Source: Nitrospira japonica (GTDB lineage Bacteria > Nitrospirota > Thermodesulfovibrionia > Thermodesulfovibrionales > SM23-35). From it: DNA of 64,000 bases. Shown piece by piece: positions 50,606 through 64,000 of the stretch. Each line of letters begins with the position of its first letter. Positions within the stretch are counted from its first letter, which is position 1. Made by a program: the position numbers and the translations under genes. The stretch lies in the NCBI GenBank assembly GCA_020725385.1, contig DYFC01000060.1, positions 1 to 64,000 of the forward strand, written 5' to 3'. Under the pieces are notes generated by a model. That model was not told the DNA's origin, made no database searches, and saw nothing but the letters and a program-made list of their open reading frames with translations.

Positions 50606-50692
50606 ATGAAAAATCTTTTATGTGACTTTCCAATTAGTGATTCTATTAAATTTCATAGTATCCATTCAATAATAGGAGGCCATAGTGTTTAA
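50606..50692 (+). CDS. Second short leader ORF overlapping the mgtA-like start
   Basis: MKNLLCDFPISDSIKFHSIHSIIGGHSV*; stop overlaps the downstream GTG start by 8 nt. Confidence 0.35.
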   Translation: MKNLLCDFPISDSIKFHSIHSIIGGHSV

Positions 50693-53348
50693 ATTCTTGT
50701 ACAACTTATTCATTCCTTCATGGATACGTGATATGGCGAGTGCTCCCCATGCCCGTACAGATGATGAAAAACGACTTTTTGAAGTCTGCTCGGTTCCGGT
50801 AGAGAAAGCTTTACAGATTATGGACAGCAATATCCGGGGATTAAGCTCGAAAGAAGCTGAGAGACTTTTGGAAAAATATGGGCGCAATGAAATAACACAT
50901 ACCAGACGTCTTAATTTTTTTCAAGATATACTCCGACGTTTTAAAAGCCCTCTGGTAATTCAACTTATAATTATTGCAATCGTGTCTTTAGTAATTGGAG
51001 AGTTGAAATCAACGATTATTGTTTTCTCTATGATTCTGCTCAGTGTCGGGTTGTCTTATGCATTGGACAGGCGTTCAAATAATGCGGTTGAAGCCCTTGG
51101 CAAAAGGGTACAATCACGCTCAATTGTTCTTAGAGATGGCAAAGAGATAGAGTTGCCCTTGGCTGAACTAGTGCCCGGCGACATTATTCTTCTTCAAGCA
51201 GGTTCAATTATACCTGCAGATCTAAGAATAGTTTCAGCTAAAGATTTTTTTGTAAGTCAGGCAACACTTACAGGTGAATCAATTCCTGTCGAGAAAAATG
51301 CTGAAATTTCAGAAAATAGCGGAAAAGAATTATTTGAGTTAAGTAACGCTTGTTTCCAGGGTAGCAGTGTAAGCAGCGGTACAGCACGCGGGCTAGTTGT
51401 AAATACGGGTAGCCACACATATTTTGGTGCAATTGCTGAAAGGCTTTCTGCAACAGCAATCCAAACCAGTTTTGATCTCGGTGTTCGCTCATTCACATGG
51501 CTTATGATCAAATTCATGATAATAATGGTTTCTTTCTGTTTTGTGATTGTCGGGCTTACAAAGGGTAACTGGCTTGAAGCACTTCTGTTCGGGTTAGCTG
51601 TTGCTGTAGGGCTAACACCTGAAATGCTGCCGATGATAGTTACTGTGAATCTTGCAAAAGGTGCAATTTCTATGTCAAAGAAAAAAGTAATTGTCAAAAG
51701 ACTTTCTGCTATACAAAATTTTGGAGCAATTGACATACTCTGCATGGATAAGACCGGAACATTAACTCAGGATAAGGTTATCATGGAAAAACATGTAGAC
51801 GTTACAGGAGAAGACAGTGAAAATGTGCTCCGTTATGCATATCTAAACAGTTATTATCAGACAGGGCTAAGAAATCTGCTTGACAGGGCAGTGCTCGAAC
51901 ATAGGGAATTCGATGTTGAAGGTGCGTGCCGGCTGGTAGATGAACTACCATTTGATTTTCAGCGCAGGCGTATGTCTGTTGTAGTAGAATTTGAAGGAGA
52001 TCATGTCCTGATTTGCAAGGGTGCGGTAGAAGAGATTTATTCTTGCTGTAGTTACTACCAGTTGGATGATGAAATTTATCCTCTTATAGATATGATCAGA
52101 GATGATCTTTTTGATGAAGTTGCACGTTTGAACAATGAAGGATACCGAACCCTTGCTGTTGCTTACAGAGAGTTTCCACGCGAAAAGATACGTTTTTCTA
52201 CAAAAGATGAATCATCTTTAATACTTCTTGGTTATTTAGCTTTTCTCGATCCACCAAAGGATTCTTCTTCCAGAGCCATAAAACTTTTAAAGGAAAACGG
52301 GGTTGGGGTTAAAATTCTGACAGGTGATAATGCTCTTGTTACCGGTAAAATATGCCGCCAGGTTGGGTTTGAGGTCAATCACATTGTTACCGGAGAAGAA
52401 TTGGAACGTATGTCCCGGAAGGAATTTGAAAAGTCTGTTGCAGAAGCGAATGTAATGGTTAAACTATCACCATTACAAAAAGAAAGAGTAATAGAATCAT
52501 TACGCATAGATAGCAAGCATGTAGTAGGCTATATTGGTGATGGTATTAATGATGCACCGGCTTTGCGTGCTGCTGATGTGGGGATTTCTGTCGATTCTGC
52601 TGTTGATGTGGCAAAGGAATCCGCTGATATAGTACTTTTAGAAAAAAGCCTATTAGTCCTCGAAGATGGAATTATTGAAGGCAGAAAGGTTTTCTCTAAT
52701 ATTATAAAATATATCCGCATGGGAGCAAGTTCCAATTTCGGCAATATGTTTAGTGTGCTCGGAGCAAGTTATCTTCTTCCTTTTCTGCCAATGCAGCCTG
52801 TACAGATTCTTTTGAATAACCTGTTATATGATTTTTCACAAACAGGCATCCCTACTGATAATGTAGATGAGGAACAGATTGCAAAACCACGAAAATGGGA
52901 TATCGGAAACATAAAATGGTTTATGATCGTAATCGGACCGATAAGCTCAATTTTTGATTATGCAACATTTGCTTTAATGTGGTTTATTTTCAATACCCGG
53001 GCATTTCTTGAAGTAGCAACCGGTACAGCCGGACGGGAGATATATGCACAACTTTTTCAGACAGGGTGGTTTGTGGAATCTCTGCTTACACAAACACTAA
53101 TTGTTCATATTATTCGAACAAAACGCATTCCTTTTATTCAGAGCCGTGCTTCCATGACTATGACACTAACCACGCTTGCTGTTATGGCAATCGGGGCATG
53201 GTTGCCTTATTCTCCATTTGCATCAACATTCGGATTTGTGCCTCTACCGCTTAGCTATTGGGGTTGGATAGCCGTGTTTCTTTTTATGTATATTATTATT
53301 ACACATAAGATCAAAAAGTGGTTTTTCAAAAAATTTGGAGGTGAATAA
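50685..53348 (+). CDS. mgtA: Magnesium-translocating P-type ATPase (MgtA-like)
   Basis: MDKTGTLTQD, TGESIPVEK, GDGINDAP; MgtA-type C-terminal half (NNLLYDFSQTGIPTDNVDEE); GTG start with AGGAGG SD. Confidence 0.92.
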   Translation: MFKFLYNLFIPSWIRDMASAPHARTDDEKRLFEVCSVPVEKALQIMDSNIRGLSSKEAERLLEKYGRNEITHTRRLNFFQDILRRFKSPLVIQLIIIAIVSLVIGELKSTIIVFSMILLSVGLSYALDRRSNNAVEALGKRVQSRSIVLRDGKEIELPLAELVPGDIILLQAGSIIPADLRIVSAKDFFVSQATLTGESIPVEKNAEISENSGKELFELSNACFQGSSVSSGTARGLVVNTGSHTYFGAIAERLSATAIQTSFDLGVRSFTWLMIKFMIIMVSFCFVIVGLTKGNWLEALLFGLAVAVGLTPEMLPMIVTVNLAKGAISMSKKKVIVKRLSAIQNFGAIDILCMDKTGTLTQDKVIMEKHVDVTGEDSENVLRYAYLNSYYQTGLRNLLDRAVLEHREFDVEGACRLVDELPFDFQRRRMSVVVEFEGDHVLICKGAVEEIYSCCSYYQLDDEIYPLIDMIRDDLFDEVARLNNEGYRTLAVAYREFPREKIRFSTKDESSLILLGYLAFLDPPKDSSSRAIKLLKENGVGVKILTGDNALVTGKICRQVGFEVNHIVTGEELERMSRKEFEKSVAEANVMVKLSPLQKERVIESLRIDSKHVVGYIGDGINDAPALRAADVGISVDSAVDVAKESADIVLLEKSLLVLEDGIIEGRKVFSNIIKYIRMGASSNFGNMFSVLGASYLLPFLPMQPVQILLNNLLYDFSQTGIPTDNVDEEQIAKPRKWDIGNIKWFMIVIGPISSIFDYATFALMWFIFNTRAFLEVATGTAGREIYAQLFQTGWFVESLLTQTLIVHIIRTKRIPFIQSRASMTMTLTTLAVMAIGAWLPYSPFASTFGFVPLPLSYWGWIAVFLFMYIIITHKIKKWFFKKFGGE

Positions 53349-53351
53349 ATT

Positions 53352-54149
53352 ATGCTGCATACAATTCTTCAGGCATTGGAAGATGGCCGGGTAATTGAGC
53401 TACCTGACAACGATAAAAAAGATGCTTTTGAAGTTTTAGCAAGCTTGCTGGAGGCCGTGCCATCTATTCCGGCTGGAACAGATATTGTTGGCGCGGTCCT
53501 GTCACGTGAGAGTATTTCTAACACTTCTCTGGGCAATGGATGGGCATGTCCCCATGCTCCTGTCCCATTTGATGGTGAGTTATTATGTGCTATAGGCTGG
53601 AGCCCGCAGGGAATAAAATATGGTAAACAGGACGAACCTCTTGTAAGGTTGATTATAATGTTTGTTGTCCCTGAAAATCAGAGAAGTCGTTATATTAAGG
53701 AAGTCTCAACTCTTGTTAAGGTAATTGAAAAACATCCTGAATGTAGAAATCTTGAAAATGTAGAGAATTTAAACGCTATACGTCTAAGATTGCTGGATAT
53801 GGCAAATTTTGCTATGGAAAATGGCGGACCGGATACCCGTGCTAAGATGATTGAATTGAAGACAAAGGCTGCTGTTATTCCAGCGATTGTACCAGAATTC
53901 GAAAACATGATAATTGAACCACTCATGATTATATCGGGACCCGGGATTGAACCTATTGTTCTAACACAGAACAAAGAATTATTTGATATTACTAAAGAAG
54001 ATAAAATACTTGCTACAGTTATTGCAGAAAAAAACTGGCATACTCTGAATGGATGGCGAATTGTGCGTAGGAGCAGTACAAATTATCAAGCGGATATAGT
54101 AGTTTATGATTGCTTTGCTATAAGGTCGGCCAGGAATAGTACAGTATGA
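53352..54149 (+). CDS. PTS EIIA (fructose-type)-like domain protein with extra C-terminal domain
   Basis: GNGWACPHAPVPF resembles the EIIA phospho-His region; LVRLIIMFVVPENQRSRYIKEVSTLVKVIE. Confidence 0.65.
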   Translation: MLHTILQALEDGRVIELPDNDKKDAFEVLASLLEAVPSIPAGTDIVGAVLSRESISNTSLGNGWACPHAPVPFDGELLCAIGWSPQGIKYGKQDEPLVRLIIMFVVPENQRSRYIKEVSTLVKVIEKHPECRNLENVENLNAIRLRLLDMANFAMENGGPDTRAKMIELKTKAAVIPAIVPEFENMIIEPLMIISGPGIEPIVLTQNKELFDITKEDKILATVIAEKNWHTLNGWRIVRRSSTNYQADIVVYDCFAIRSARNSTV

Positions 54150-54269: not shown

Positions 54270-56420
54270 TTATCCGGCTACTGTCAGCACCAGCACAAGT
54301 GAAAGAACCAGGGTTAGAAGACCATAGCCAACATATGCATTGAGCCGTCCATGGTGCATAGCAGCTAACGCGTAAGCGATTTTTAAAGCACCTGACCGCA
54401 AAGGCGTAATGACTGAGCGATCAACGATATGAACTTCCTCCCTGCGCCGGCGAATAGCAGCGCGGAAATGGGCTTCAACAGTAGCCTGTGTATCTTGAGT
54501 GGTAGGTCGCAGGATAGTATCGAAAATCACCCTAACAGGGTTGGAGAATCCTGTAGCAGTGTAAGTCATTTCAGGGAGCAAGCGCCGGATGCCACCATCC
54601 CAGCGTTGGTTGCGTATCACGCAACGGTCTCGCGCCAAACCAAATCGTACCACAACGAATACAATTGCAAGAAGAATGATCAATACAGGAAACATATACG
54701 AGGTTGACATAGCGAAGACAACCGGATTGTGCTCGCCACCACGATGCATTACAACCAATCCTTGTCCCGGGAAAACCTCCTGTCCAACCTGTGCTCCAAG
54801 ATCACGGAACTCAGCTGCGAATTCAGGCTTTAGTTTTATATGATCCGGACTCGTAGCGAAAAAAGGCGGTGTAAGCGCTTCCACAGCACTCGCCTGTGTG
54901 ATCGGTTTGAGGACACCATCAAGCGCTGAAATTACAAATGTCGGTAACACACCGAGCAGGAGGCAGAACACCATTAACACTACCATTGGCGAGGTCATTG
55001 ATCGTGCGGCCTCGGTAGTTTTTTCTGCATGAGCCGAACGTGATATCCCAAGAAAGCCCATAGCAAAAGCTTTTACAAAACATGTAACTGCAAGAGCAGC
55101 AGTAAGTGCTAATATGGCGCCACAGAGTGCAAAAACCACTTTCACGCTTACTGATGAAAGTTCGGCGCTTCGCAGCATTGTTTGCAGTGTGAGCCATTCG
55201 CTCACAAAGCCATTAAAAGGCGGAAGGGCTGAAATAGAAAGAGCACCTGCAAGAAAACAAAGAGCGGTTAATGGCATACGACGGATTAATCCACCAAGTT
55301 GGTCAAGGTGACGGACACCCACCTTCATATCTACTGTAGCTGCGCTGAGAAACAGAAGGGCCTTGTAAAACGAGTGATTGGCCATATGATAGAAAGCAGC
55401 AACAAAAGCGATAGTCGCAATTAGAGTATGACCTGTTGCGGTAAACACAAAACCCGCGCCCAATCCTGCAGTGACTATACCTATGTTTTCTATAGAACTA
55501 TGGGCAAGCATCACCTTCAGGTCGTTTTTTGTCGTCGCGTAAAGAATACCGACAAAGGCAGAGACTGTGCCGATAATCAATGTAATCAAACCGGGACCAG
55601 TCATTGTCATTGGCAATATATCCATATTAATACGCACAATGCCGTAAAGCCCCAGATTCAAAATGACGCTGGAGAGCAGCGCTGAAATATTGCCTGGCGC
55701 AACAGGATGTGCGCGCGGCAGCCATGCATTAAAAGGTGCCAGTCCTGCTTTTACTCCAAACCCGAAAAAAGAAAGCAGAAAAATAGCCCATTGTAATCCT
55801 TCCGACATACCCCGGGATGTACTTTTGAGAGCAGGGAAAGACAAACTATCTGCAGGAATAGCGAGTAGAAGCAGCGCAATGGCAGCGGCCAATGTTCCGG
55901 CCTCGCCCATTGCCAGCATCAAGTAGCCAGCTGCTGTATGCTCTTCATCCCTGTGCTCAAAATTAACGAGAAGATAGCTCAGGATAGACATCGCTTCCCA
56001 TGCAAGCAAAAACATCAACACATCACTTGCGAACAGGATTAAACCAATCGATAAAAAAAGTGACAGATACCAAATATTGAAAACTTTCAAACTGTAATGG
56101 CCCAGATAGTGTTTCAAATAACCAGAGGAAAAGACGGAGACCGGCAAAAAAATCAGAGCAGTGACAACAAGAAAAAGAGCTGAAAGCTTGTCCAATGAAA
56201 GTTCTAACGTTCCCAGCACAGGTATAGTCCAAAGCGAAAACCGGAATGTGTCTCCCCCAAGCAGAACCGTCCCGGCGCTCAAGAGAAGTGCAAGCGCAGC
56301 AACTGACCCGAACCATGCAAGCACATTAGGACACCATCGCTCCGGGATAAGAATAGTCGTTACGACTCCAGTGACTAACAGCCAAAAAAAGATTTGAAAC
56401 AAAATATCCGAGCTTATCAT
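54270..56420 (-). CDS. HyfB/NuoL-like proton-translocating membrane subunit
   Basis: LAWEAMSILSYLLVNFEHRDEEHTAAGYLMLAMGEAGT, KAGLAPFNAWLPRAHPVAPGNISALLS. Confidence 0.9.
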   Translation of the reverse strand: MISSDILFQIFFWLLVTGVVTTILIPERWCPNVLAWFGSVAALALLLSAGTVLLGGDTFRFSLWTIPVLGTLELSLDKLSALFLVVTALIFLPVSVFSSGYLKHYLGHYSLKVFNIWYLSLFLSIGLILFASDVLMFLLAWEAMSILSYLLVNFEHRDEEHTAAGYLMLAMGEAGTLAAAIALLLLAIPADSLSFPALKSTSRGMSEGLQWAIFLLSFFGFGVKAGLAPFNAWLPRAHPVAPGNISALLSSVILNLGLYGIVRINMDILPMTMTGPGLITLIIGTVSAFVGILYATTKNDLKVMLAHSSIENIGIVTAGLGAGFVFTATGHTLIATIAFVAAFYHMANHSFYKALLFLSAATVDMKVGVRHLDQLGGLIRRMPLTALCFLAGALSISALPPFNGFVSEWLTLQTMLRSAELSSVSVKVVFALCGAILALTAALAVTCFVKAFAMGFLGISRSAHAEKTTEAARSMTSPMVVLMVFCLLLGVLPTFVISALDGVLKPITQASAVEALTPPFFATSPDHIKLKPEFAAEFRDLGAQVGQEVFPGQGLVVMHRGGEHNPVVFAMSTSYMFPVLIILLAIVFVVVRFGLARDRCVIRNQRWDGGIRRLLPEMTYTATGFSNPVRVIFDTILRPTTQDTQATVEAHFRAAIRRRREEVHIVDRSVITPLRSGALKIAYALAAMHHGRLNAYVGYGLLTLVLSLVLVLTVAG

Positions 56421-57190
56421 TGTTTTTTTACCTCTTCATGCTTTAGGCTCACGGACTGTGTAATCAGTGATGCCGGAGGTTTGAGTCCAGCAACTACGAG
56501 TAGCGCGTGCAAGATAGCAAGAGGAGGAGGAGGTTGACCGGGAACTTCAACATCAACCGGAAGAAACTCGCTTATATTTTCATCACATACGAAACTCGGG
56601 CTGAAGACACCTCCTGATAGCGCACATGCTCCCACGGCTATTACCCACTTTGGCATTGGTATTGCGTCATATACTTTCCGGAGCGGTTCCCGCATGTGGT
56701 CAGTAAGTGGCCCAACTATAAGTAATACATCAGCTTCCCGTGGGGTCGGTGTGATGAAGAAGCCCAGGCGATGCATATTATAATAAGGATTGTTCAACTG
56801 ACGAACTTCATTCAGACATGCACCACAATCACCGGTGTCAACAACAATAATGTTAAGAGACCGATCAAAAGCCCGAACAAATTTTTTCCTTGTTTCTATG
56901 ATATTTGTGTCTGTAGCCCATTCATAACCTTGCTGCCAAGCTATGGGCAATGTTACACCACGAATGCATCTGTAACAGTGCACACAGCGGCGGTAATCAA
57001 CCACAAGCTTGTGATTTTGAAAGCTGAGTGCACCAACCGTACAGCGTTTGACAAGCTCACTGGCTTGTTTTTCTGGATAATCCCCGCCAAGTGGCAAGCC
57101 TGGAGATACTCCTGGTGCTGTTTCCTCTCGGCCTGGATAACAAGTTGTTTTGATACCGGTTGCCAATCCTTTTCTAACCCACTGGCTCAT
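56417..57190 (-). CDS. HyfI/NuoB-like small subunit with N-terminal ferredoxin-like segment
   Basis: RCTVGALSFQNHKLVVDYRRCVHCYRC; DTGDCGACLNEV...VGACALSGGVF...VDVEVPGQPPPPLA. Confidence 0.87.
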   Translation of the reverse strand: MSQWVRKGLATGIKTTCYPGREETAPGVSPGLPLGGDYPEKQASELVKRCTVGALSFQNHKLVVDYRRCVHCYRCIRGVTLPIAWQQGYEWATDTNIIETRKKFVRAFDRSLNIIVVDTGDCGACLNEVRQLNNPYYNMHRLGFFITPTPREADVLLIVGPLTDHMREPLRKVYDAIPMPKWVIAVGACALSGGVFSPSFVCDENISEFLPVDVEVPGQPPPPLAILHALLVVAGLKPPASLITQSVSLKHEEVKKQ

Positions 57191-57214: not shown

Positions 57215-58810
57215 TTATCGATCGTTTTCAGCTACCGAAAGATCGAATGTTGCCAGAATAATCGGGAAATCCTGAAAAGCGAAATTTTCCGCAGCCACGT
57301 GAAAACCATGCCAATTTACAAACGAAGGTGTAATGAGGCGGTACCGGGAAACACGCCCATCTTCTCCTATGCGTAACCAATGAAAAGCCGCACCACGTGG
57401 TGCCTCGACCCATCCCAGTGCTGAACCGGGTTTGATTCGTACCTCAGAAAAAACCGGACCTCCCGGCAACGAAGCTGTTGCCTGCTCCATAATTTTTACC
57501 GACTGCCGTGCTTCTTCAAACAGGACACGCAGCCGGGCATAACCGTCGCCTTCCTGCTCACATGGCACCTCAAAAGTATATGCTTCGTAACCCGAGTATG
57601 GTTGAACTTTACGCAAGTCACGTGTAATTCCTGATGCACGGGCAACAGGCCCTACAAGGCCGTGTTTCATAGCCTCCAGTTGATTTACAATTCCGACTTC
57701 TTCCAGCCGGTCGAGAAAGCTACTGGAAACTCGCAGCATTTCTTCCAGTCTGTCAAAGCGCTTAAGAATAGCCTTTGCCTGTTGAACTGCCTCGTGGCAG
57801 ACTGAATCGTCAAACTCCTTGTTTAATCCTCCAGGAACTGCCAGGCCAAAGAGATATCGGTGTCCTGTAAACCAACCTGAAAGCCGCAGCAATTCCTCCT
57901 CCATTATTGCGGCCTGACTGGTGGCTACAGCCAGAGCGGTTGACTCGCAGATTTCCTGTACAGCGCCTACATGATGACGTAGTCGCTCCAGTTCTGCTAA
58001 AAGAACGCGGAGAACTTGTGCCCGCTCAGGAACTTTTATACCACAAATATTTTCGATCGACTGGACAAATGCAAGCGAATGGGCAAAAGCTGTAGTTGCT
58101 GCAAAACGTTCGGCCAGCAGCAAAGTGCTTTCAGTTGTAAGCCTCTCAGCAATTTTTTCGATAGCTCGATATTTATAAAATAGGCGGGGTATTGTACGTA
58201 TCACATCTTCACCAACGGTTTCCAGCAAGAAATGCACTGGTTCAGTTACACCGGAAAATTTCGGCCCAATCGTCATGCCAAAAGCCCCGGGTGCTTTTAC
58301 AATGAGATTGGGCTTCCACTCGAGATCAGGCATTCGATGCTCTACTGATTTTTTTCCATCAAAGCTATGGAGCATCGGTCTTAGTTTTTCCTGCCACCTC
58401 TCATTGTGAAGCACAAAATCTCCGAGACGTGGATGACCGGCAAAATATAGTCCAAAGAGGTCTTCTGCTTCACGTTCATGCCAGTCAGCAGCATGTAAGA
58501 AACCGCTAATGCTGGGAAAAGCGGGATCAGATAGCGGCTGGTGTGTTAGAATGTATATCCAACCCGGCTCGTGGTCGCTATAAAATACATAGCGTAGCTC
58601 CCAGTCCGAAGAACCTTCCTCAACTATCAGACCGGCGAAGACGTAATGCATTTCTAAACTCAACCATTTACAAACATCTGGAATATCCTCTAACTCACAT
58701 TCCATTTCACATAATGAATGACTGAGATCAAGGCGGGGCTTAATGTCCGGCCAATGTCTGATAGCAATTTCCTGAATGTTATCTAATGTCATGTGCTGTT
58801 CACCTCTCAA
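57215..58810 (-). CDS. HyfG/HycE/NuoCD-like large subunit lacking NiFe ligands
   Basis: NuoC-like N-terminus (HAADWHEREAEDLFGLYFAGHPRL), NuoD-like body; AERFAATTAFAHSLAF at the CGIC position, FDLSVAENDR at the DPCxxC position. Confidence 0.9.
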   Translation of the reverse strand: MRGEQHMTLDNIQEIAIRHWPDIKPRLDLSHSLCEMECELEDIPDVCKWLSLEMHYVFAGLIVEEGSSDWELRYVFYSDHEPGWIYILTHQPLSDPAFPSISGFLHAADWHEREAEDLFGLYFAGHPRLGDFVLHNERWQEKLRPMLHSFDGKKSVEHRMPDLEWKPNLIVKAPGAFGMTIGPKFSGVTEPVHFLLETVGEDVIRTIPRLFYKYRAIEKIAERLTTESTLLLAERFAATTAFAHSLAFVQSIENICGIKVPERAQVLRVLLAELERLRHHVGAVQEICESTALAVATSQAAIMEEELLRLSGWFTGHRYLFGLAVPGGLNKEFDDSVCHEAVQQAKAILKRFDRLEEMLRVSSSFLDRLEEVGIVNQLEAMKHGLVGPVARASGITRDLRKVQPYSGYEAYTFEVPCEQEGDGYARLRVLFEEARQSVKIMEQATASLPGGPVFSEVRIKPGSALGWVEAPRGAAFHWLRIGEDGRVSRYRLITPSFVNWHGFHVAAENFAFQDFPIILATFDLSVAENDR

Positions 58811-60242
58811 GGGCAGATGCTCCGAGGCGCAATAACTGATGAAGGGGTTCAGGAAGATAAAAGCCTAACCAGATCACAAGCAAAGCTGTTACGAGGAGCA
58901 CCACCAAACAACTTGCCGGCAAGCGTACCTTTAGCTTTGCATCGCTATTGCTTCCACCAAAAACCATTTGGTTAATGTGCTGTAAAATTCCAAAGAACCC
59001 GATTGCTATAAATAAAACCAGCAGCGCCATTTCTATAAAACGGCCTTCAGACAGACCTGCTCTGAAGATAGAAAACTCGCTCAGGAATACTACAAAAGGC
59101 GGAGCACCGGCGATAGCCAGTCCACCCAGGAGCAGGCTCGCACCGGCAACAGGCGATGTGCGAATGAGACCGCGTACCAGGGAGATTTCGCGAGTGCCGA
59201 CTGCCAGGAGTGCTGCGCCTGCAGCGAAAAAACAAAATGATTTGGTAAGCGTATGGCTAAAAGCTTGATATAAAGCTCCATAGTGTGCAGAAGAAGTGCC
59301 AAGGCCTGCAGCCAGCAGAATAATACCCATGTGTTCCACTGTGGAAAATGCAAACATCCTTTTGTAATCGCTAACTTGTAGCAAAAGAAATGCAGCAGCT
59401 CCAACCGATAGCAGACCGAAGACGATCGCATACACCTCTGCATGAGTTCCAGGAGCAGCCTTGAGAACCGGGAAAAGTCGCAGAATCACATAGAGCACAG
59501 CAGTAGTCTCAACACCGGACAACAAGGCACAGACTGGCGACGGCGCCTGACTGTGAGCATCGGGTAGCCAGGTATGCATCGGTACGAGCCCGGCTTTTGT
59601 ACCAAGTCCTACCAGAATCATTACGAACGCTACCTCTAACAGGACAGCAGGCATTCGCGGCGCAGCAGCAACGAGACCATCCCATGTATAAGTGCCACCG
59701 CCTGCAGCCTGCATTGTGGCGAAAAGCATCAAAAAACCAAGCAAACCCACAGCAGCGCCCATAAGTGAGAGCACAACATATTTCCATGCTGCTTCAAGTG
59801 CTTCGTGTGTATTTTCAAAGCACACCAAAAGGGCTGAGCATAGTGTTGTCAATTCCACAACGATCCAGACCAGAGTCGGTTCTACCAGAACAGGGATGGC
59901 AAGCATCGAAAAGATGAAGAGATTGAAATTCGCGTAATAAAGGCGCAGACGTCCGGGTTTATGAGAATTCATCGACATGTAGCCTAACGAAAAGAAAGCT
60001 GCCATTGCTCCGACAAAGGCGATCATGAGAAGCATAAGCACACTTAACCCGTCTACCGCAATCCATTTCGGGAACACTGATATAGGCTGGCCTGTGCTCA
60101 CAACCTGTTCGGCGAGTTGCAGACTTATAAAAAATATTGCTGAGGACGAAGCGACGGTAACAACTGATGCAAGCCGTGGCAAAGGCAGGAAGGACAGGGC
60201 TGCAGCTGCTAAAGGTAGAATAAGAAGAATAATTACATTCAT
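58800..60242 (-). CDS. HyfF/NuoN-like membrane subunit
   Basis: GTKAGLVPMHTWLPDAHSQAPSPVCALLSGVETTAVLY. Confidence 0.9.
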   Translation of the reverse strand: MNVIILLILPLAAAALSFLPLPRLASVVTVASSSAIFFISLQLAEQVVSTGQPISVFPKWIAVDGLSVLMLLMIAFVGAMAAFFSLGYMSMNSHKPGRLRLYYANFNLFIFSMLAIPVLVEPTLVWIVVELTTLCSALLVCFENTHEALEAAWKYVVLSLMGAAVGLLGFLMLFATMQAAGGGTYTWDGLVAAAPRMPAVLLEVAFVMILVGLGTKAGLVPMHTWLPDAHSQAPSPVCALLSGVETTAVLYVILRLFPVLKAAPGTHAEVYAIVFGLLSVGAAAFLLLQVSDYKRMFAFSTVEHMGIILLAAGLGTSSAHYGALYQAFSHTLTKSFCFFAAGAALLAVGTREISLVRGLIRTSPVAGASLLLGGLAIAGAPPFVVFLSEFSIFRAGLSEGRFIEMALLVLFIAIGFFGILQHINQMVFGGSNSDAKLKVRLPASCLVVLLVTALLVIWLGFYLPEPLHQLLRLGASALER

Positions 60243-60958
60243 TGACCTGTCTCCTCCAGCGCTTCATCGGTTGTACGTTCTTTAAGCCTTGCCATTGCAC
60301 CAACTTCGGTAGTGCCGATATGCTGATGGACTGCACGGATAAGGACGCCTGTAATAAAAACGATGATTAGGCCGTCTGTGGCAATAGCAAGTTCCACAAG
60401 GAGTGGCAATGTACGGGCTAGACTTATACCCGCAAAAAAAGCGCCGTTTTCCATCGCCAATAAGCCGATAAGTAGAGGCACCGCTTCACGCCGTACTGCG
60501 AGCGTATAAGCTCCCAGAAAAAGCACAGCAAATCCGATTGGAATATTCGGCCCGCGAAATTCAACCGCTATTGCTTGCTGCAACGGGATAGTAAGAAAAT
60601 AGGCTATGATTACAAGCGCCAGCGAAATAAGAAGTGATGAAGGGATATTCAATACCTGGTCGATCTCGCGGCGGGTATAGACTTCTTCATGCACTGTTTT
60701 CCGTAGAACCCAGGGAATTAAAATTGCTTTTGCGACCACATTCACAAGAGCAACGCCATAAAGATGCAAAGAGGAGTGCCGAAGTCCAAGCAGGAAAGCG
60801 GATACTGCCAGCAGCAATGATTGTGTGATAAAAAGTGTTAGTGTCCCCTTTGCCTGACGTGTAGCGACAATGCCGAAAGCAGTGAGTAGAAATAGACCAC
60901 CTGCGAGCATATTCAGTGAATCCAGAATTGAAACTGCTATTAAATTATCATTTATCAT
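60239..60958 (-). CDS. HyfE-like membrane subunit
   Basis: HyfE-type multi-TM protein between HyfF- and HyfC-like genes. Confidence 0.85.
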   Translation of the reverse strand: MINDNLIAVSILDSLNMLAGGLFLLTAFGIVATRQAKGTLTLFITQSLLLAVSAFLLGLRHSSLHLYGVALVNVVAKAILIPWVLRKTVHEEVYTRREIDQVLNIPSSLLISLALVIIAYFLTIPLQQAIAVEFRGPNIPIGFAVLFLGAYTLAVRREAVPLLIGLLAMENGAFFAGISLARTLPLLVELAIATDGLIIVFITGVLIRAVHQHIGTTEVGAMARLKERTTDEALEETGQ

Positions 60959-60965
60959 GGTTTCA

Positions 60966-61916
60966 TCAAAGAGAAAATAACCTCATAAGCATTGCTGCCA
61001 CCGATGTAACGAAGGCGCTACCCAGAAATTCGGTAATGCGAAACAAACGAAGTTTGGCCAGCGATGATTCGATGATAACGAGCACCAGAATAAAAATAAA
61101 TATTTTGAAAAGGACAAGTGGAACAGCTAATAGCACATTACCAAACGTCTGTTTGTAGGCAAGCCCCCATGGTGTGACGAGAACGTTGAGAAAAATACAT
61201 AGCAGCACAAACAACTTCATATAACCACCCCATTTTATCAGGGCTGCACCTTTGCCCGAGTATTCCAGCATTTTAGACTCGTCGATCATAGCTAATTCAA
61301 AGTGTCCGGAAGGATTGTCAACCGGAATACGCCCGGTCTCTGCGAGGATTAGCATGAAGAAAGCAGCCATCAGGAGCACATGTGATGGTTCCAGAAAATT
61401 TGATGGTGGCGACATCCAGCGTTTTTGTACAATATAGGGGATGGTAGAATCAGCAACAAAAGCAACCGTGAAGAATACAATAATAAACACAGGTTCTGCC
61501 AGGAAACCAACCATACGTGTCCGGCTTGCACCCATAGGGCCATAAGGGTTAGCAGTGTCAACTGCAGCTAGTGTTTTAAAAAATCCACCGAGTGCCAGCA
61601 CAAAGCCGCCACCCACCATATCAGCCATAAACGCAAAAAAGAGTGGATAATCTGTGAGAACCGGGATGAGTAGTGTGACAAAAATAGGAGTGATAAATGC
61701 AATATACGGTGTAGCACGGAAAATCCAGGAACTTTCCTCAGAGATTACCTCATCTTTTTGGAAGAATTTCCACAGATCGCGATAAGGCTGGAAAATACTG
61801 GGACCACGCTTTGATTGTACAATTTCCTTTAGGCGATTTATCACGCCTGCAACAAGCGGCGAGAAAACAAGTACTACCAGTACTTGTAAGAGGTTGAAAA
61901 AAATGCGCTCAATCAC
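60966..61916 (-). CDS. HyfC/HycD/NuoH-like membrane subunit
   Basis: RGPSIFQPYRDLWKFFQKDEV, ETGRIPVDNPSGHFELAMIDESKMLEYSG; GTG start. Confidence 0.92.
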   Translation of the reverse strand: MIERIFFNLLQVLVVLVFSPLVAGVINRLKEIVQSKRGPSIFQPYRDLWKFFQKDEVISEESSWIFRATPYIAFITPIFVTLLIPVLTDYPLFFAFMADMVGGGFVLALGGFFKTLAAVDTANPYGPMGASRTRMVGFLAEPVFIIVFFTVAFVADSTIPYIVQKRWMSPPSNFLEPSHVLLMAAFFMLILAETGRIPVDNPSGHFELAMIDESKMLEYSGKGAALIKWGGYMKLFVLLCIFLNVLVTPWGLAYKQTFGNVLLAVPLVLFKIFIFILVLVIIESSLAKLRLFRITEFLGSAFVTSVAAMLMRLFSL

Positions 61917-61996
61917 GGACCGACTTCTCTGACCGTTACTTTGCCAGACGGTCTTTTATACTGAGCGTTATAGGCAGCCACCAATGAGCGTTCCAT
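61913..61996 (-). CDS. Short ORF between riboswitch and hyfC-like gene (possible gene remnant)
   Basis: Open frame AGVGKPDDPIRNKLGKVMERSLVAAYNAQYKRPSGKVTVREVGP*, stop overlapping the hyfC GTG (GTGA); ATG at 61996. Confidence 0.35.
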   Translation of the reverse strand: MERSLVAAYNAQYKRPSGKVTVREVGP

Positions 61997-62055
61997 AACC
62001 TTCCCAAGTTTGTTTCTGATGGGATCGTCGGGCTTACCGACTCCCGCATTTTCTC

Positions 62056-62115
62056 AAACTATAGGAGTTATCAGCCCCAGGAGGGCGGCGCTTCAAGGCG
62101 AACTCCATCGCCTAC
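62056..62115 (-). promoter_or_regulatory. Fluoride (crcB-type) riboswitch aptamer
   Basis: Minus strand: UAGGCGAUGGAGUUCGCCUUGAAGCGCCGCCCUCCUGGGGCUGAUAACUCCUAUAGU; GGCGAUGG..UUCGCC stem, GGGCUGAU, pseudoknot GGAGUU/AACUCC as in the fluoride riboswitch consensus. Confidence 0.88.
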
Positions 62116-62171
62116 GATAAAAAGAATACTACCACAATTTTGATCAATGTGCAAGTTTTTTTTAAACCGGT

Positions 62172-62693
62172 TTACTTTACTACAATTACCGAGCATGGAG
62201 CGAGCTTCGTAATGTTCTGTGATGTCGAGCCCCACACCCTTCCAAATATCTTAGAATGCCCCATGAATCCGATTACAAGAAGGTCGAAATTACCTTCTTT
62301 TGCATATTGTACTATTGTTTCAACTTCATGGCCTGCCAGAATCTTTGTGTGAAGTTCAATACCCTCTTTTGTTGCTTCTTCGATTGCTTCCTCATTGAGT
62401 TTCTTAAAGAACCCGTTTGCCTCTTCTTTGTATTCAACTACTTCGCCTATAGTTGCTGCATAATGTGGAATTTTTTCTTCCACTGAGAGGCTGTAAAGTT
62501 TTGCATCATATTGCTTTGCAAGATCTATTGCAACTTTCAGTGCATGTTTAGATCCTTCTGAGCCATCGTATGCAATCAATATCTTTTTATACATCAATCC
62601 CCTCCTGTCCCTATTGATGTTTTTGAAATTTGGCCTTATCGATACCTCCGTCAAAAGGTCAGATAAAACCGCACATTCCCCCATAAAAATCAT
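62172..62693 (-). CDS. Universal stress protein
   Basis: MYKKILIAYDGSEGSKHALKVAIDLA, GFMGHSKIFGRVWGSTSQNITKLAPCSVIVVK; the initiator may be the internal MYKKIL. Confidence 0.9.
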   Translation of the reverse strand: MIFMGECAVLSDLLTEVSIRPNFKNINRDRRGLMYKKILIAYDGSEGSKHALKVAIDLAKQYDAKLYSLSVEEKIPHYAATIGEVVEYKEEANGFFKKLNEEAIEEATKEGIELHTKILAGHEVETIVQYAKEGNFDLLVIGFMGHSKIFGRVWGSTSQNITKLAPCSVIVVK

Positions 62694-62803: not shown

Positions 62804-63226
62804 TTAATGGGTTTTCCCTTGCTTTAATGTAATCAGAAAAATGCCACCGATCAGAGTCAGGAAACCCGCGTATAAAAATCCTGCAGCTGGTGAAACCTTT
62901 GTCCACAAAATACCGACTACAAAGCTCGATATAAAATCTCCAACTCCGTTAACCATTGATAGTGCTCCATAGCCGGTGCCTCTCAAATTTTCTGGCAAGA
63001 GGTCACCTGACAAAGCCCTTTCCATGGAATCAACGATTGCTATATAAATGCCAGCGAGAGAAAATAGTATGAACATAGCCCAAAGCTTGGGAGGTTCAAA
63101 AATAAAACCCAGACACATCAAAGAGAACCCATAATCACTTAATAGGCTTGTTAGACCTATTCCCAAAATGCTTTTAGTCAGCCATTTATTTTTCACAGGC
63201 TTTCTCCATTTTGAGATCAATATCAA
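62804..63226 (-). pseudogene. Internally deleted MFS transporter remnant
   Basis: TM1-like KNKWLTKSILGIGLTSLLSDYG joined directly to a C-terminal MFS region (SMERALSGDLLPENLRGTGYGALSMVNGVGDFISS). Confidence 0.55.
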
Positions 63227-63950
63227 TCAATTTCAGGTTCACGCGACCTCCTGTAAGATATTTCGGCAAAACAGCTTTATTAGCAAATTTTTTTGTCAAT
63301 CCTGGATTACCGTTTGTGATGTCATATATATCCGGGAAGACCTCTTCTACTAAAGCGTTGGCTTCGCCTATGGTTTGCATGGTTAATAAGAATGAGTCGT
63401 ACTTTGATAGATTTTTTATCCGCACTTTTGGCAAAAGCCAGAGACAGTATTCAAGACATGCTGTAAAATTGTAATCAGACATCTCCCAGCTCTGCCGGCT
63501 TGCTGTAATTATGATTGCAAGGTCTTTTAAGGGTGTCAAAAATGCGTTAATTCTGGGAGTCACAGATTCAAGGTGGTCAAGTATTATACAGAATTTCTTA
63601 TGTCCGATATTATTAAATATCATATTTTTCATTTCCCTTGAATTTACCTCTTTTAGATCGCTTTGACGACAAATCTCTCTAATTCTTTTATATTTGTCTA
63701 TATTTGCAAGGGTTCTGGAACGTTGCAGCAGAACCTCGGCGATGGGCAGGAGGATTTCTTTAAGTGTCCTGCTTTCCCTGCAAAATACAGGTATTAATGA
63801 AGTATTCATATCCATCCAATTTTGATATATATGTTCAAGAATTGCAGTTTTACCGACTCCCTCTGGCCCGTAGATATGAAAGGATTTCATTTTGTTGATA
63901 TATGATTTAATTAGACTGATTTCATTATCTCTTCCAATAAGTTTACTCAT
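63186..63950 (-). CDS. AAA/STAND-like ATPase
   Basis: Walker A GPEGVGKTAIL, Walker B-like FCIILDHLE; start set at MSKLIGRDNE since the tracked 63983 start lies in a hairpin. Confidence 0.7.
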   Translation of the reverse strand: MSKLIGRDNEISLIKSYINKMKSFHIYGPEGVGKTAILEHIYQNWMDMNTSLIPVFCRESRTLKEILLPIAEVLLQRSRTLANIDKYKRIREICRQSDLKEVNSREMKNMIFNNIGHKKFCIILDHLESVTPRINAFLTPLKDLAIIITASRQSWEMSDYNFTACLEYCLWLLPKVRIKNLSKYDSFLLTMQTIGEANALVEEVFPDIYDITNGNPGLTKKFANKAVLPKYLTGGRVNLKLIDIDLKMEKACEK

Positions 63951-63971
63951 AAAGCAAATCTTTAAATAAAA

Positions 63972-64000
63972 AACTCCTACCAATTTTATTAGTAGGAGTT
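63972..64000 (-). terminator. Intrinsic terminator of a minus-strand gene beyond the right edge
   Basis: AACTCCTAC / GTAGGAGTT hairpin, followed on the minus strand by TTTTTTATTT. Confidence 0.8.

Follow-up and report, generated by a model that had tools for sequence, protein, structure and literature searches.

We identify a fluoride riboswitch at the head of a six-gene operon whose products resemble hydrogenase 4 and whose large subunit lacks the cysteine ligands of the NiFe site. In our judgement, the operon probably encodes a fluoride-induced, complex-I-like ion pump of the energy-converting hydrogenase-related (Ehr) type, which closes a fluoride-resistance island of four riboswitch units and would restore membrane energy and pH under HF stress. 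Both the riboswitch regulation and the loss of NiFe ligands are read from the sequence. The riboswitch-associated 'formate hydrogenlyase' of the literature is, at least here, probably a different machine and most likely an ion pump. Throughout, the window is the whole stretch of DNA analysed, the first 64 kb of a 70.8-kb contig.

The riboswitch, its leader and the fluoride island

Scanning the whole window against all Rfam families returned a sole match, to the fluoride riboswitch family RF01734. This match, which we call RS4, covers the full model (positions 1-64) and scores 48.9 bits, above the gathering cut-off of 34 bits. The sequence-only reading had placed a fluoride aptamer on the minus strand at 62056-62115 and had named an Infernal/Rfam search with the crcB RNA model as the way to check it. 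The search bears the aptamer out, and the GGCGAUGGAGUUCGCC stem-loop, the GGGCUGAU segment and the GGAGUU/AACUCC pseudoknot strands described in that reading are all found in RS4. Its next full-length gene was also correctly taken to be HyfC-like (61916-60966), the first of six. RS4 is like other members of the crcB motif family in sequence, fold and 5'UTR position upstream of fluoride-response genes; it differs from a typical member in standing in a tandem of four and in having no obvious terminator. The features of this region, in the direction of transcription, are as follows.

63986-64000, minus strand: 3' end of the third fluoride riboswitch, running on to contig position 64053 (RF01734, 34.9 bits)
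63186-63983, minus strand: AAA/STAND-like ATPase, first gene behind the third riboswitch (PF13191, E 2.2e-7, slightly below the curated cut-off)
62804-63226, minus strand: MFS fragment of 140 aa (PF07690, profile positions 71-174 of 347 only)
62172-62693, minus strand: universal stress protein, closing the third riboswitch unit (PF00582, E 8.3e-30)
62055-62121, minus strand: fluoride riboswitch aptamer RS4, heading the Ehr operon (RF01734, cmscan 48.9 bits, E=1.6e-10)
61913-61996, minus strand: possible 27-codon leader ORF in the 5'UTR (MERSLVAAYNAQYKRPSGKVTVREVGP, then a stop; translation and leader folding)
60966-61916, minus strand: HyfC/NuoH-like membrane subunit (PF00146, E 4.9e-33; closest solved chain 7z0s_D, FHL subunit 4, E 2.3e-40)
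60239-60958, minus strand: HyfE-like membrane subunit (NF008556, hydrogenase 4 membrane subunit, E 2e-20, below the curated cut-off)
58800-60242, minus strand: HyfF-like antiporter-like subunit (PF00361, E 1.2e-44; Lys/Glu/His pump residues conserved in the clade)
57215-58810, minus strand: HyfG/NuoCD-like large subunit with neither of the NiFe cysteine motifs (PF00329 and PF00346; alignment to HycE, 7z0s_E)
56417-57190, minus strand: HyfI/NuoB-like small subunit with an N-terminal 4-Cys ferredoxin-like segment (PF01058, E 2.8e-23)
54270-56420, minus strand: HyfB-like antiporter-like subunit, the last gene of the operon (PF00361, E 1.5e-48; closest solved chain 7z0s_C)

RS4 is the last of four consecutive fluoride riboswitches within the final 9 kb of the contig. 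The genome holds four RF01734 matches, all on the minus strand of this contig (62055-62121, 63986-64053, 68954-69019 and 70631-70701), and all but RS4 fall on the edge of the window or outside it. In order of transcription, the first unit has, behind its riboswitch, genes for a CPA2-type Na+/H+ exchanger and for a universal stress protein; the second consists of a riboswitch, a dynamin-like GTPase, a 147-aa protein and PEP synthase; the third of a riboswitch, the AAA/STAND-like ATPase, the MFS fragment and a second universal stress protein; and the fourth of RS4 followed by the six Hyf-like genes, from 61916 down to 54270. The first riboswitch unit occupies contig positions 68954-70770 (L005:14955-16771), with the contig end about 70 nt upstream of its riboswitch. 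Because the contig ends just past this first riboswitch, the island may continue and further units may be missing.

The AAA/STAND-like ATPase is given with its listed start, and an internal ATG lies 11 codons downstream; its orthologue in a family relative (L121:4858-5628) is also riboswitch-headed, the RNA scoring 33 bits, just under the cut-off. The 140-aa MFS protein is probably a remnant, and comparable matches lie near the complex in several relatives. The dynamin-like GTPase (L005:13135-14889), which has its own fluoride riboswitch here, is found near the complex in 21 of 81 loci. The 147-aa protein (L005:12587-13030; L121:2007-2426) gave no Pfam or NCBIfam match and recurs in fluoride islands (six loci, phmmer); genome G013 carries a look-alike downstream of weak riboswitch matches. 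On the plus strand at 50685-54149, convergent with the Ehr operon, are a Mg2+-translocating P-type ATPase (TIGR01524) and then a PTS EIIA-like protein, and MgtA homologues lie near the complex in L056 and L090 as well. Since fluoride binds Mg2+, the ATPase may belong here functionally. A comparable system is the FRM fluoride operon of Enterobacter cloacae, deletion of which lowers fluoride tolerance (PMC5533749). It too is a fluoride-riboswitch island with UspA and a cation-ATPase annotation; unlike the island described here, it includes crcB along with enolase and pyrophosphatase and lacks any machine of the complex-I type.

Terminators complementary to the aptamer 3' strand follow the first three riboswitches, and a clear one is absent after RS4. 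Terminator-type platforms do precede HyfC in at least some relatives (e.g., L036, L037 and L082). The stop of the leader ORF overlaps the GTG start of HyfC, and in the predicted free fold the aptamer 3' strand pairs with a stretch holding the possible ribosome site and the AUG of this ORF. Translation control by RS4, with the ribosome site hidden when fluoride is absent, is unsupported: predicted accessibility shifts from 0.23 to just 0.28, and no convincing release of the ribosome site was seen on folding the leader.

Identity of the complex

The complex shares subunit types and architecture with the E. coli formate hydrogenlyase (FHL)/hydrogenase-4 (7z0s), whose chains are the nearest solved relatives of HyfC, HyfG and HyfB; HyfB and HyfF closely resemble antiporter subunits of Mrp and MBH. 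The earlier label 'hydrogenase-4-like' holds for the architecture and fails as a statement of hydrogenase identity, HyfG being without NiFe ligands. In the alignment, the RVCGIC and DPC of HycE become RFAATT and DLS, so that HyfG reads ERFAATTAFAH and TFDLSVAE where the NiFe CxxC motifs are expected. Both cysteine pairs are absent in all 81 aligned sequences (HyfG and 80 close relatives), and three true group 4 hydrogenases aligned alongside retain them as AERICGICGF and DPCFSC. Homology to group 4 hydrogenases together with the lost NiFe ligands assigns the complex, on sequence grounds, to the Ehr type, the name for group-4-like complexes without these ligands (PMC6349859), and not to hydrogenases or FHL.

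Other features separate the complex from its better-known relatives. No formate dehydrogenase partner was found among the island genes with a family match, and, as a further difference from E. coli FHL (7z0s), the small subunit here carries its own 4-Cys ferredoxin-like segment. The operon comprises six genes only and has no NADH module (NuoEFG), which sets it apart from respiratory complex I. Where complex I has its quinone-site Tyr (Nqo4 Y87), the sequences inspected have Ala or Gly, making ordinary quinone reduction doubtful. Ehr complexes such as archaeal Mbx and Mbs are likewise group-4-like, with antiporter-like subunits and no NiFe ligands (PMC6349859); compared with these, the proteins described here form a separate clade tied to fluoride riboswitches, and none of the other Ehr loci that we sampled from related genomes lies close to such a riboswitch.

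The membrane arm retains its pump residues. HyfB and HyfF are both Mrp/complex-I-type antiporter-like subunits, as expected of the Ehr type, with the Glu of TM5, Lys of TM7, Lys of TM8 and Glu of TM12 kept in 70-76 of 73-76 sequences. HyfC shows almost no variation across the clade at its acidic residues. In HyfI, the four N-terminal ferredoxin-like cysteines are present in 77-78 of 79 sequences and the first three proximal-cluster cysteines in all 79. The usual fourth proximal cysteine (PGCPP) is kept in 28 and missing in 51, often replaced by Asn, Asp, His or Gln, and about half of the sequences (38/79) have an alternative cysteine 17 residues upstream. Both cysteines occur together in 2 of the 79, only one or the other in 36 and 26, and neither in 15; such rare coexistence suggests that some members of the clade have swapped one ligand for the other. 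Where the fourth proximal cysteine is missing, electron transfer may be weakened.

Pairing of riboswitch and complex across phyla

Searching GTDB genomes with an alignment of three HyfG sequences yielded 80 loci at 52-64% identity, from Acidobacteriota, Pseudomonadota, Myxococcota, Planctomycetota, Verrucomicrobiota, Actinomycetota, Nitrospirota, Thermodesulfobacteriota, Campylobacterota, Spirochaetota and others. Our set of 81 loci consists of 78 of these, two duplicate records having been removed, with the window and two relatives. Pairing was counted where HyfC and at least 150 nt of upstream sequence were available, which left out 17 of the 81 loci because of contig ends or no detected HyfC. 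Riboswitches were located by covariance models and Rfam checks; a pattern-based scan had missed many real copies. The loci were fetched by protein similarity and not by RNA, so that any riboswitch at them is observed independently of the search.

Each of the 64 scorable loci has a fluoride-riboswitch match at the head either of the operon itself or of a short operon that leads into it. The match lies within 500 nt of the HyfC frame in 57 and ahead of CrcB, DUF190 or dynamin genes running into HyfC in the remaining 7; six of the 57 direct matches, mapped by position, score under the Rfam curated cut-off (L087, L092, L094, L095, L104 and L113). RF01734 occurs in 76 of 79 carrier genomes versus 4 of 14 controls. 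The order to which the window belongs, sampled through 81 genomes, yielded 36 further Ehr/hydrogenase loci; none has a riboswitch within 15 kb, and 18 of the 36 sit in genomes that do have fluoride riboswitches. This control included few true hydrogenases (3), and a riboswitch-linked true FHL may accordingly exist elsewhere. The riboswitch-linked proteins form one clade (support 100) in which phyla are interleaved, as would be expected from horizontal transfer.

Some loci show further peculiarities. L080 has apparent tandem copies of the complex (HyfF-G-I-B, then HyfC-E-F-G-I-B), and HyfC of L037 (7132-8100) is split across two frames through a frameshift or an assembly error. Pairs of MutS-like genes, most of them under fluoride riboswitches, stand beside the complex at L036:470-3621 and in L047, L066, L070, L105 and L113, consistent with the published mutS association.

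Possible roles under fluoride stress

Since 2010, lists of fluoride-riboswitch genes have included 'formate hydrogen lyase' (Weinberg 2010, PMC2864571), a link that the sequence-only reading stated correctly, and a 2024 review reads the association as part of a metabolic shift (PMC11139923). Entering as HF, fluoride makes the cytosol more acidic and depletes the proton-motive force that export requires, and Na+/H+ antiporters rank second in frequency among the partners of fluoride riboswitches (PMC11139923). A pump of the complex-I type, induced by fluoride, fits the need that arises from such a loss of pH and proton-motive force. In the mechanism that we propose, fluoride entering as HF would accumulate in the cell and bind the aptamer, which would raise expression of the six-subunit Ehr-type complex. 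Having no NiFe ligands in HyfG, the complex would neither make nor consume hydrogen. A putative cytoplasmic donor would feed electrons into the complex by way of the ferredoxin-like and proximal clusters of HyfI, and electron flow would drive ions through HyfC and the antiporter-like HyfB and HyfF. Pumping would restore the proton-motive force and cytosolic pH collapsed by HF influx, both needed for fluoride export. We infer the fluoride induction of the operon, as we do the redox drive, ion specificity, transport function and benefit of the complex. Three findings add weight to the earlier suggestion of a complex that responds to fluoride or pH stress: the pairing in 64 of 64 loci, the co-directional crcB genes in some copies and the riboswitch-headed CPA2 exchanger next door.

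Neither crcB (PF02537) nor CLC (PF00654) has a match anywhere in this 96.6%-complete genome, in agreement with the earlier statement that the window holds no such exporter. G013 (100% complete) also has the complex and no crcB or CLC match. We rejected the notion that the complex is confined to genomes without known exporters, as crcB is found in 29 of 49 carrier genomes and some CLC in 45 of 49, CLC-F and chloride CLCs being counted together. In L036, a co-directional crcB follows HyfB after 28 nt, and crcB or DUF190 genes adjoin many other copies of the complex. The CPA2 antiporter as a general substitute exporter is unsupported, four other carriers without crcB and CLC matches having no homologue of it.

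Several other readings of the operon were weighed. A true formate hydrogenlyase or hydrogenase 4, induced to shift metabolism toward fermentation under fluoride as the literature implies, would account for the hydrogenase 4 family names, for the FHL chains as closest solved relatives of HyfC, HyfG and HyfB and for the naming of FHL as a riboswitch partner (PMC2864571, PMC11139923). It is already contradicted by the loss of both NiFe cysteine pairs in every one of the 81 relatives, and no formate dehydrogenase stands among the identified island genes; we regard it as very unlikely. Unlikely, in our view, is a redox-dead, Mrp-like Na+(K+)/H+ antiporter in which the soluble arm is structural and the membrane arm manages pH by swapping cations for protons. 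The closeness of HyfB and HyfF to Mrp and MBH subunits, the CPA2 antiporter of the same island and the loss of the fourth proximal cysteine in 51 of 79 sequences speak for such an antiporter, whereas near-complete retention of the ferredoxin-like cysteines and of the three other proximal ones would be unexpected in a redox-dead arm.

The complex might instead expel fluoride itself, for example as F- or HF through the membrane arm, replacing CrcB or CLC-F. The presence of the complex in this genome and in G013, neither with a crcB or CLC match, points that way; against it, 29 of 49 complex-bearing genomes also have crcB, sometimes adjoining, and the CPA2 antiporter could be the exporter here. 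We hold this to be improbable, and think it similarly doubtful that the riboswitch-dedicated Ehr clade as a whole is a multi-subunit fluoride-export or F-/cation-coupled machine. If the clade does export fluoride, genomes like this one could live without CrcB or CLC-F. A riboswitch that acts on a short leader peptide, or that is a mere relic, would leave the complex outside fluoride regulation; this reading would be in line with the 27-codon ORF between riboswitch and HyfC and with the lack of a clear terminator. Such a neighbourhood effect is hardly credible given the pairing conserved in 64 of 64 loci over many phyla despite varying leaders, and given the terminator-type platforms before HyfC in L036, L037 and L082. 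We continue to favour the Ehr-type ion pump.

Of these elements, the association of fluoride with 'FHL' has been known since 2010, and the identity of the partner as a NiFe-less clade appears unreported in searchable papers. Our literature search, which covered papers outside subscription, found none that names these genes NiFe-less Ehr or describes a clade-specific pairing. The riboswitch-linked complex here belongs to a specific NiFe-less clade spread over many phyla and cannot be a NiFe hydrogenase. If the same holds for the published 'FHL' cases, an ion-pump explanation would replace the metabolic one. Should our proposal be true, an Ehr complex would gain a known inducing signal, and its function would become testable.
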